The notes under the pieces are model-generated. The model was not told where the DNA came from, did not search any database, and was given only the letters and a program-made list of their open reading frames with translations. This document shows, in pieces, positions 25,216-28,640 of a DNA stretch of 64,000 bases; position 1 is the stretch's first letter, and each line of letters starts with the position of its first letter. Source of the DNA: Oceaniferula flava. Its GTDB lineage: Bacteria; Verrucomicrobiota; Verrucomicrobiia; Verrucomicrobiales; Akkermansiaceae. The translations under genes and the position numbers were made by a program. The stretch is from positions 1 to 64,000 of the forward strand of contig NZ_JAFBGL010000013.1 in assembly GCF_016811075.1 (NCBI RefSeq). The letters are read 5' to 3'.

Positions 25216-25285
25216 AATTCTACATGATCAAACATCTGTAAGCCCCTACTACCTGAGTTCACTAATAACACTGTTCACCGAAGAA

Positions 25286-26341
25286 ATGCCTGCCAACCGC
25301 CCAGCTATTCCCGCTGAACTCGCGCGAAGCGTTAAGATCGAGGCAGGTCACAAATGCGCTGTTCCCACTTGCGGACAAACACCTGTTGAGCTTGCCCACA
25401 TTGAACCGTGGGCGAAAGTCAAGAAGCATGAGTTTCATAACTTGATCGCACTCTGCCCTACCTGTCACACCCGTTTTGATAGCGGCGTGATTGACCGTAA
25501 AGCGATGAAAATTTACAAAGCCAATCTTTCGAAGGGCGCTGACTTCGGTGAAAAGCTCGATCGGCGAGTAGAGAGGTTAGAAGCTCAGGCTAAGAATCCC
25601 CACCATGACCCTCAGCGCGGGTTCGCCCAGGCTTCGTCACTATACTACAACCGAGCTTGCGAGATCGGCTTCGTCGACCGGGAGCGATTCGTAAAGGTCG
25701 GAACATGTACGTTCGTTAAGCCACGGATCGCAGTCGTTCCCGGTTCAGTGCTCGACATGATCGATAGCCTTCTCGAGTTGAGGGGCGACCATCCATCGGT
25801 GTTTGAACCGATTGGGATGACGAAATTCAAAGTAATTGACGCTCCGAGGAAGCATGGAGATTTGCGATTGATTGAACTTGATCCAGTTGACGAATCATAC
25901 CGAGAGAGCGTTCTCGCTGAGCATTTCGGAGATGAGCTAAAGCAGATGCAATCAAATTTTGCCGCGAACGAATCTCCGATTCGGTGCGAACTAAGCATCT
26001 ACATTGGTGAGCACGTCGGATACCTTAGCACGCCGGACAACACAGAGGATTTACGCGGGGCGATGGAATTTCAGTTTCAGGATGCCTATGTGTCCTTTCG
26101 AGGATCTCCGATTGAAGGAGGCATTCACACTGGCTATCTGACGCCCGTTCCTAGCGCTTTGAATCATTCTGGTGCACCATTGTTTAGGCCAGACGGCACG
26201 CTAGTAGGGCTGGTAACAGATATCGTGTTTCCTGAATCAGAAATGGCAGGACGACCCGTGTTCACAACTCTTCTGTCACTTCCAGACTTGTGGAAGCCTT
26301 ACATGAAAACAACGGCTAATCGGGTCCCCGTGACTGACTAG
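25286..26341 (+). CDS. HNH endonuclease fused to a degenerate trypsin-like domain
   Basis: 351 residues as it stands. Residues 18-80 form an HNH/zinc domain: C24, C29, H38 (ELAHIEPW), H51-N52, C57 and C60 (CPTC), then H61. After a charged helical linker (about 85-105), residues 120-340 resemble a double-barrel trypsin-like fold: GTCTFV near 139, GDLRLIELD with Asp192 at the acid position, and NHSGAPLF with Ser295 at the nucleophile position followed by GTLVGLVTDIV. The position expected for the catalytic His is occupied by VVPGSVLD, so protease activity is doubtful. Residues 346-351 and the stop come from the group II intron on the other strand; the native gene probably ended 10 codons after Asn345, at 28223-28225. 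Nuclease plus sensor-like domain suggests defence; this is inference. Confidence 0.7.
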   Translation: MPANRPAIPAELARSVKIEAGHKCAVPTCGQTPVELAHIEPWAKVKKHEFHNLIALCPTCHTRFDSGVIDRKAMKIYKANLSKGADFGEKLDRRVERLEAQAKNPHHDPQRGFAQASSLYYNRACEIGFVDRERFVKVGTCTFVKPRIAVVPGSVLDMIDSLLELRGDHPSVFEPIGMTKFKVIDAPRKHGDLRLIELDPVDESYRESVLAEHFGDELKQMQSNFAANESPIRCELSIYIGEHVGYLSTPDNTEDLRGAMEFQFQDAYVSFRGSPIEGGIHTGYLTPVPSALNHSGAPLFRPDGTLVGLVTDIVFPESEMAGRPVFTTLLSLPDLWKPYMKTTANRVPVTD

Positions 26342-26395
26342 CGTCAGCCACGAGTCCCACACCACCGGACATACGGCTCCGTATCCGGCGGTTCC
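26319..26395 (-). ncRNA. Group II intron domains V and VI
   Basis: Minus strand. Domain V (26361-26395) is a bulged hairpin made from ACCGCCGGATACGG and CCGTATGTCCGGTGGT, with CGC rather than AGC at the catalytic triad position, as in class C introns. Domain VI (26319-26360) has a perfect 10-bp stem, CGTGGCTGAC with GTCAGTCACG, then closes with GGGAC...CCC just before the 3' splice site. Both RNA domains look intact, so the intron may still splice if a maturase is supplied in trans. Confidence 0.8.
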
Positions 26396-26397
26396 AA

Positions 26398-27765
26398 TCA
26401 GACTTCCTGAACGCTTCTTTGTTCAGGGTAGTGAAGAGAGATCCAGATCCCCCTCATGTTAGGAACTCCTTGTTCCTCCAGCCAGCAGTTGTTAAGCGCC
26501 AGCCTAACCAGTGAGTTGTTACTCATTCTCCAGTAGCCTTTACGGCTCCTGCTCGCCATATGAATCCGCTCTGGAAAGACTCCCAACGCGAGTAGGTTAC
26601 GGCGGCGTGTGCGGGGCTGTTTCCACTGCTTCCAGTAGTAGAGCCTCACACTTCGCCTGACCCATTCACTTAACTCTAACACCTCGGCGTAGGTGCAGCT
26701 GAGTTTATAGTAGTTAAGCCAGCCACGAGTGTAGAGGCACAGTTCATCAATGACGTCCTGCACCTTGTGTCCGCGGTTGCGACGGGTGATTCCCCGCACG
26801 TGTTGCTTGAACCGTAACAGGGCTTTGTCCGTCCACATCAGCTTGCCTCGGTGCCCTATCTGGCATCCCAGAAAGGTGCACGATTCCAGTAACGTGGCTC
26901 GGCTCTTGACCCTGTTGACTACCAGTTTGAGTCGTCCTTCGCAGAACCTGACAACACTTTCCATCACCCTTTGTGCCGCTTTTGCACTTTTCACCAGTAT
27001 GATAAAGTCATCGGCGTAGCGGGCCAAATGATGTCCGCGCGTTTCGAGTTCCTTGTCAAGTGGGTCGAGTACGATGTTGGCTAACAGCAAGAGAGTGGTC
27101 CGCCTTGTGGCACTCCTTGAGTGCGTGGCCTCGCGGGTGCCATCCGGCAACCTCACTCCCGCCATCAGGTAGCGGCGAATGAGCCCCAGAGTCTTGCGGC
27201 ACCGGATCTTTTCGCGCAACGATGTCATGAGCTTGTCATGGTTCACGGTGTCGAAGAACGACTTGAAGTAACAATCGACGGCATGCCGCCGACCTTCCTT
27301 CCAGCCGGTTTCCATCGTCTCCACGGCTTGATGAGCCGATCGGTTCGGACGGAATCCGTAGCTTCTTGAACTAAAGTCCGCATCAAGAAGCGGACTGATC
27401 ACTTGTGCAACGGCTTGCTGGATCATGCGATCCTGCACCGTCGGTATTCCCAGCGGACGTTTCGATCCGTCGGGTTTTGGAACAAACACCCTGCGCACGA
27501 GCGCGGAGTGGTAGTTCCCTTCCATAAGATCCGCACTTATCCTCGGCCAGTGCTTCCGGCAGAAGTCCGGAAAGTCACCCACCGACATACCGTCGATTCC
27601 GGCCGAACCTTAGTTTGTCTTCACTCGTTTCCAAGCTTCGGCAAGGTTCGCGGAACCGAGAATTTGCCCGATCATGGTTCGTTCCTGAGGAGATTCATTC
27701 TTCTCTCCATGACGGCGCTCAAGTTCACCGCGCCGACTGGCGTTAGTGGCTGGGTTGTCCGTCAC
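26398..27765 (-). pseudogene. ltrA: Inactivated group II intron reverse transcriptase/maturase
   Basis: The full frame probably starts at GTG 27765 and would be about 455 codons. It is interrupted by TAA at 27610-27612 inside the conserved KTNKGSAGIDG motif, where the TAA replaces a lysine codon. A second lesion lies around 27081-27118: a +1 and a -1 frameshift that compensate each other. Translated in frame, the QGVPQGGPLS motif of RT domain 4 is replaced by a run of Ser/Arg/Thr; shifting frame by one base restores QGVPQGGPLS. The polymerase YADD box and a maturase X-like region (GWLNYYKLSCTYAE) remain. The longest remaining frame is 396 codons (from 27588). The enzyme is almost certainly non-functional. 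Confidence 0.85.
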
Positions 27766-28190
27766 GGGATCAATCTCCTACTCATTGGTTCGGCCCTTCG
27801 TCGGGTAGTGGCTCCACGGCTCTCATTGTTTAACTCGGGCATTCTTCGCCCCCCGACTCGTTTTATCCCGACTACTATGGCTTCGGCTGACTCCTCACCT
27901 CCCTTTGGCGATGAGGCCTCCCAGGTAATTGCACGTTGCTCCACTGCACTACCGCCGTATTTACCTCCGCAGGCATACCTGATGCCTTCGCTGTGTTGTG
28001 CCAGCTCGGCGCGCTACGTCGGCCTTCTATACAGTTCTTATTCATCGGCTCGCAGCTTTCTCTTAGCCTTCATTCCCATGGTCGGTCACCCTTCCATAGT
28101 TGGCTTCGGATAGTAGTTTCTTCATTTTCATGTTTGGTATTTCTACAAGGGACTTGAACCCCATTTACAACGTGCCCATGCTGGGCACAC
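27766..28190 (-). other. 5' ribozyme part (domain I) of the group II intron
   Basis: 425 bp between the start of the maturase frame and the intron 5' end. It starts GTGTGCCCAGCATGGGC, a hairpin GCCCAGCATGGGC that matches the usual first stem of bacterial introns. A 236-codon plus-strand frame across 27403-28113 is antisense to ribozyme and maturase sequence and is not a gene. Confidence 0.7.
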
Positions 28191-28244
28191 ACAAGGCAGT
28201 GGACTCAACGCGCTACCGCGCGTGAGTCACTTTTGACGTTCGAT
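28191..28244 (+). repeat. attC-like recombination site, right part (left part at 26312-26318)
   Basis: Joining 26312-26318 to 28191 gives a 59-bp element. GGCTAAC stands as inverse core (one mismatch to RYYYAAC), then a 6-nt spacer. The arm GTGGACTCA pairs with TGAGTCAC except for one bulged G, enclosing an inner CGCG-CTAC-CGCG hairpin. A 7-nt spacer follows, then GTTCGAT (28238-28244) as core (one mismatch to GTTRRRY). Arms with an extrahelical base, short unpaired spacers and total length all suit an integron attC. The intron splits the inverse core. The alternative is an ordinary terminator hairpin, but no T-run is adjacent. Confidence 0.5.
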
Positions 28245-28301: not shown

Positions 28302-28640
28302 ATGAAACAGCATAACTCTAACAAAGATCAATTGGGGCAATTGCTCAATGAGATCGTTGACTTTGACCCCGCCGGAGAGTGGGGATTTCGCGAAGCCTTG
28401 GCATCAATCAGCAAGATCAGTAGAGTTGGCTCTGGCGAGGATTTGCGGGTGCACGTTTACGTCAGAGGGCTAAAGATACCGCATGCAGCCGCTCAGGTGA
28501 GTATCGAGGTAAAGGGCGCACGGGTTATTTTCTATGCCATTGACCAACGAAGCCCTTCCGAGTCCCGATGGGTGGTCCATCCAAACCACGAATGGATCCG
28601 GCATTACCAGCTATGGCTAGAGAGGGACGCTAACCTATAG
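28302..28640 (+). CDS. Hypothetical protein of the accessory island
   Basis: 112 residues from the ATG at 28302; a TTG six bases upstream is the only other nearby start. No signal peptide or membrane segment. It looks like a small alpha/beta protein: a helical N-terminus (QLGQLLNEIVDF), beta strands (DLRVHVYVRGLKI, AQVSIEVKGARVIFYAI) and a tryptophan-rich C-terminus (ESRWVVHPNHEWIRHYQLWLE). I do not recognise a family. It sits 58 bp after the attC-like core and ends at another inverted repeat, so it may be a gene cassette. Confidence 0.6.
   Translation: MKQHNSNKDQLGQLLNEIVDFDPAGEWGFREALASISKISRVGSGEDLRVHVYVRGLKIPHAAAQVSIEVKGARVIFYAIDQRSPSESRWVVHPNHEWIRHYQLWLERDANL

Follow-up and report, generated by a model that had tools for sequence, protein, structure and literature searches.

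A solitary attC site in which an HNH-nuclease gene of Oceaniferula flava ends, split by an antisense group IIC intron

We analysed a window of 64,000 nucleotides from Oceaniferula flava (Verrucomicrobiota; Akkermansiaceae; contig NZ_JAFBGL010000013.1), in which an HNH-nuclease gene on the plus strand (25286-26318; Pfam HNH, 3.8e-07; HNH_2, 4.5e-07) runs directly into a group IIC intron on the minus strand (26319-28190). The intron is 1872 nt long, is antisense to the gene, and is present in a single copy in the genome. As it stands, the reading frame of the gene stops inside the intron (26339-26341). The five bases at the left junction, GGCTA (26314-26318), are the first five of an attC R'' box; its last two, AC (28191-28192), lie at the right junction and begin the remainder of a 59-nt attC (28191-28244). 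On the minus strand, the intron ends read CTTGT/GTGTGCCCAGC at 28190 and GACCCGAT/TAGCC at 26319 (the slash marks the junction), and the joined target on the bottom strand reads CTTGT/TAGCC, within R''. These ends and coordinates had been proposed in a sequence-only reading of the window and held on inspection of the sequence and comparison with relatives. So did the proposed antisense orientation. The intron lies in the attC bottom strand, the HNH frame is on the plus strand, the frame for the reverse transcriptase (RT) is on the minus strand, and the junction is TTGT/T.

Joined without the intron, the flanks read GGCTAACAAGGCAGTGGACTCAACGCGCTACCGCGCGTGAGTCACTTTTGACGTTCGAT, an element of 59 nt. 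Its stem arms are AGT(G)GACTCA and TGAGTCACT, formed by L'' (28198-28207, with an extrahelical G) and L' (28223-28231), and R' is GTTCGAT (28238-28244). The spacers are 5 and 6 nt, a layout that also occurs in neighbouring arrays, and the R'' sequence GGCTAAC is found in arrays of the same genome (L012, L107, L108). The element has the features by which an attC is recognized: R'' ending in AAC, R' starting with GTT, the spacers, and an L stem with an extrahelical base. A point against this reading is that, by eye, R'' and the present R' pair at four positions plus one G-T. The bottom strand folded at -13.6 kcal/mol (z -3.36), and 1 of 200 shuffled sequences folded equally well.

We scored the rejoined element by log-odds, modelling both bases and base pairs. 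As training data we took 25 attC sites from arrays in the same order (seven loci); the window element was excluded, the variable middle was trimmed, and the sites were aligned without gaps (alignment A1). Of 20 array-side stretches, L082, L088, L089, and L090 yielded training sites, as did L099. On this model, which shares the bias of the analyst's own rule by which the training sites were chosen, the rejoined element scored 40.2, the level of array sites (leave-one-out median of the training sites, 41.3). Scoring against an attC model was a check proposed in the sequence-only reading. In the leave-one-out analysis, 23 of the 25 training sites scored at least 15.7 and two scored below zero. 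Background was simulated with 60 sequences of 64 kb from a first-order Markov model, scanned on one strand each; the highest score was 15.0. There was no other attC in the window at a score of at least 0, joined or intact, on either strand. Alignment A1 also served to build an Infernal model (R1), which was insensitive on whole genomes. In the genome of O. flava it gave seven matches at E ≤ 1 (best 0.019), after a loose first pass that scored 150 of 1788 candidates. Because R1 found 7 sites and the log-odds script found 54 in seven stretches, R1 was not used for counts.

Uninterrupted relatives of the element are found elsewhere in the order. The 32-nt core, at up to three mismatches, was present at 19 places in 18 of 386 genomes, and the reversed-pattern control gave no matches. 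Within its own genome there was no second copy at this threshold; outside it, there were 18 uninterrupted copies in 17 of 385 genomes. In each of the 18, a heptamer resembling R'' stands at the usual distance and nothing is inserted there; the AAC of R'' is intact in 16. An array copy in a genome of the same family (G151) shares 50 of 59 positions with the rejoined element. Thirteen of the 19 copies were aligned over 59 columns; L115, L116, L120, L125, and L127 were omitted because of altered boxes or an indel, as was L128, the genome of which already contributes L110. In this alignment an additional stem pair is A-T in the window element and G-C in all 12 other copies. The sequence-only reading had described a 59-nt attC-like element with one bulged base, and this description stands, with a stem one pair longer than was drawn. 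Further attC sites (score at least 18, same strand) were present in the fetched stretch for 12 of the 17 contigs bearing the element. The stretches from the other five contigs had none; of these, L145 and L148 lie close to the end of a contig, and the boxes of L147 are altered. An exact search of viral contigs with a shorter form of the core pattern found no match.

Two copies with low scores stand singly in their surroundings, at L140:9753 (reverse strand, G008; score 21) and L142:9546 (G678; score 25), with no second attC in the 19-kb stretches around them. The 59-nt attC type may have landed outside arrays repeatedly.

Joining the flanks also changes the end of the HNH protein. The frame is extended through 28191-28225 to a native stop codon, TGA, at 28223-28225, as had been claimed from the sequence, and the joined frame encodes 355 aa, in which ten codons (KAVDSTRYRA) replace the six that are now read inside the intron (RVPVTD). 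The phase of this stop is that of cassette genes in L143, L150, L151, L154, and L099. The L143 cassette gene ends in ANKAVDSTRYRA, with 12 residues identical to the rejoined HNH end. The other tails are shorter variants: PNKAVDSTR in L150 and L151, ANKAVDSTR in L154, and ANKSVDSTR in both L099 copies. Because the same tail ends other cassette genes, it is most likely that the six residues with which the frame now closes are an artefact created by the insertion, which supports the earlier suggestion that the C-terminus was artefactual.

The tail NK(A/S)VDSTR is common to genes whose ends are otherwise different, and it is encoded by the attC in one phase (L143:9708; L150:1573; L151; L154:4011; L099:3722 and 13623; window 28191-28225). 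YRA follows it in the joined window and in L143. A long frame enters the attC in this phase in 6 of the 18 other copies, with 163-317 open codons upstream; the remaining 12 have at most 42 open codons in that phase, and the shared tail is thus not universal. In L127 a long open frame enters in a different phase. Genes of the order commonly extend beyond R'': over 160 attC sites, 33 frames of at least 90 codons do so.

Domain searches of the HNH protein recognized the HNH domain alone, and there was no solved-structure relative at E ≤ 1 and no phage match. Predicting its structure from one sequence gave a model of no value (mean pLDDT, 33.8). The relatives detected, in three actinobacterial genomes and four plasmid records, cover only the N-terminal part. 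An intron-free HNH gene turned up in no relative: 0 of 57 at E ≤ 1e-3, besides one short HNH-domain match, and 0 of 386 others at 1e-8. Accordingly, comparison with empty sites, which the sequence-only reading had proposed as a check, was informative in part: the uninterrupted copies described above provide an empty site for the attC type beside other genes, but not for the HNH locus. The neighbouring porin gene was present in 2 of 14 genomes of the genus, including its own, and the second was 28% identical; synteny was therefore of no help.

A frame of 112 codons (28302-28640) begins 58 nt past the attC. It had no PHROG match, and a slightly longer frame from 28296 had no Pfam match above the cut-off. 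Downstream of it there was no attC at a score of at least 0.

Within the intron, a group II ribozyme match lies at 27930-28095 on the minus strand (Rfam RF02001; 98.9 bits; E 6.1e-19). By eye against two related introns (L043 and L049), we placed a putative domain V at 26361-26392 (minus strand); Rfam RF00029 did not match it even at E < 1, and six relatives do match this family. The attC hairpin provides the stem-loop in the 5' exon that is typical of IIC-attC introns. The RT is of class IIC: its nearest solved relative was the GsI-IIC RT (E 4.1e-86, compared with 9.5e-26 for LtrA). No other related RT was detected in the genome at E ≤ 1e-20. The sequence-only reading had proposed placing the RT in a group II intron phylogeny. 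In a tree of 15 IIC rows (a 21-row tree minus six long-branched rows), the RT joined the RTs of two attC-inserted introns from genome G043 with support of 98/96. A single clade for all seven attC-inserted RTs was weak, since in the best tree they lay on one side of a branch at only 63/45. In the 21-row tree the position of the RT was not resolved.

Two features not foreseen in the earlier reading are that the RT is broken and that the attC is alone on its contig. An RT remnant of 396 codons lies at 26398-27588 on the minus strand, with matches to TIGR04416 (290.8 bits, under the cut-off of 300), RVT_1, and GIIM. As judged from tblastn with two relatives, the RT is interrupted by an in-frame TAA (27610-27612, minus strand). 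Alignment to relatives indicates that it also contains a local frameshift pair, with the stretch coding for GVPQGGPLS in a shifted frame (27090-27116, minus strand). Such an RT would be unlikely to support mobility without help in trans, so the insertion should be fixed unless another RT acts on it.

The genome encodes three integron integrases above the family cut-off. In seven stretches of this genome, there were 54 attC sites at a score of at least 15 (L012, 6; L013, 4; L014, 5; L105, 10; L107, 15; L108, 8; L109, 6). There were none at this score in the intact window, in L015 (the rest of its contig), or in L016, L017, and L106. Over the whole 80.8-kb contig (window plus L015), no attC other than the rejoined one was found at a score of at least 0. 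The flanking frames look chromosomal, for example an alcohol dehydrogenase, and include two that from their sequences we take to be Der and KsgA.

Large integron arrays with attC sites of about 117 nt are located at contig ends or fill small contigs (L012, L105, L107, L108, and L109, on contigs C17, C7, C20, C23, and C24). From this placement, they are probably pieces of a single large integron that the assembly has interrupted. One of the integron integrases lies within a frame of 719 codons in L012 (12282-14441, minus strand), the N-terminal part of which has repeated GCQEA; its true start is probably further in.

The claim that the gene had been an integron cassette is well supported at its right end, but not at its left. 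Of 93 array cassettes, 80 begin with bases perfectly complementary to their own R''; another 7 have a single mismatch, and the remaining 6 have two or more. The corresponding left end, GTTAGCC, is missing at the HNH gene. The best candidates, GTTCACC and GTTAGAT, have two mismatches each. GTTCACC (25273-25279, plus strand) is the better placed and is unproven; its distance of 13 nt from the ATG downstream is the one most often seen in arrays.

We consider it highly probable that the HNH gene ends in its own 59-nt attC, away from the detected arrays, and that this attC was split by an antisense IIC-attC intron whose RT has since been broken. The gene would have terminated inside the attC, like integron cassette genes of the order, and together the two would have been located in the chromosome, apart from any detected attC array. 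Reverse splicing would then have placed the intron in R'' of this attC, on the bottom strand at TTGT/T, separating the box by 1872 nt and giving the HNH frame six foreign codons for ten native ones. The RT would have been broken afterwards; this order of events we infer. R'' is one of the boxes needed by the integrase. With R'' split, recombination of the cassette is expected to be lost. Being antisense to the HNH gene, the intron could not be spliced from its mRNA, so that the protein with the altered end is expected to be the form made now. The reading that fits the locus best is a solitary cassette whose attC contains a dead intron.

The intron type is already known and the setting is unusual. 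The target of IIC-attC introns is TTGT/T on the bottom strand of an attC, so that intron and cassette face in opposite directions (PMC7923331); such introns may carry outward promoters (PMC8876359). Those of class 1 integrons on plasmids (L049, aadA1; L050, dfrA16; L051, blaIMP-4; L129, aac(6')-Ib/arr-2) likewise have a class IIC RT and lie antisense to cassette genes, with end motifs, a TTGT/T-type junction, and an attC R'' target as in the window. However, their RTs are only about 41-45% identical to that of the window. The window further differs in its attC, which stands by itself on the contig, in its host, which judged by its relatives is no proteobacterium, and in the broken state of its RT. 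The closer introns from the same order, L043 and L044 (both in G043), encode RTs 53% and 51% identical to the window RT and also have an antisense orientation, within sites that look like attC R'' boxes. They differ in having longer attC sites, open RT frames, and other attC sites nearby (five further ones on the contig of L043, in L101; one on stretch L102 for L044). UHB.F1, from a soda-lake metagenome, is likewise a defective IIC-attC intron opposite to cassettes, with a Verrucomicrobia RT as its best database hit, but it is truncated at its 5' end and lies in a cassette array (PMC7923331). In those parts of the open-licence literature that we consulted, IIC-attC introns were described in arrays or attC clusters and none in a solitary chromosomal attC, which is weak evidence of absence.

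Could the attC likeness be due to chance, in an ordinary transcription terminator of the kind that other group IIC introns usually target? The IIC introns of L131, L133, and L135 do follow T-rich, terminator-like hairpins. Here, however, the stem has no T-run after it, the score of 40.2 compares with a simulation maximum of 15.0, and near-identical elements are present in arrays. These findings refute the terminator for practical purposes, and we regard it as hardly credible. It is also improbable, if less so, that the locus is an intermediate of cassette formation as modelled by Leon and Roy, in which intron copies behind the terminator of an HNH gene previously without an attC, and in an isolated attC, recombined. 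That model predicts the order gene, intron, attC (PMC3053210, PMC7923331), which is the order observed. It also implies that the gene's own stop should precede the intron, whereas the HNH frame is open into it. Moreover, the five bases to the left of the intron complete an R'' box, GGCTAAC, known from the genome's own arrays, and the joined frame yields the tail of other cassette genes.

How a solitary cassette came to be at this locus is less certain. Entry of a single cassette into the chromosome outside an integron is plausible, and the main alternative is that the cassette is the last remnant of an attC cluster or integron that decayed in place. The lack of a clean left boundary would fit decay, and the authors of IntegronFinder 2.0 state that single-attC clusters can be real (PMC9024848). 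Against decay, neither the window nor L015 has a second attC at a score of at least 0, and the flanking frames look like chromosomal genes; on balance we think it unlikely. A parallel for single entry is provided by cassettes inserted at attG, which also lie outside an integron (Loot 2024, as cited in PMC12901181 and PMC11023631). Insertion at attG has been demonstrated by others (PMC12901181, PMC11023631), whereas the left boundary in the window is only a candidate. We put forward tentatively, as a possible history of the solitary cassette, that it entered the chromosome alone, outside any integron, and that its attC was later split by a IIC-attC intron, which became inactive there and left the cassette locked in place, its protein having a new C-terminus.

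Relatives of the attC allow the site to be reconstructed, nearly to the base, as it was before the insertion. It also indicates that gene callers give wrong ends for cassette genes that run into an intron-hit attC, and that attC scans miss split sites, as the intact window yields no candidate. As a case of a cassette that is fixed away from any integron, the locus can be put to the test. If a single cassette did enter and was then locked, this would be a natural domestication of a cassette through intron insertion. It would also mean that IIC-attC introns reach lone attC sites, which is a requirement of the Leon-Roy model of cassette formation.
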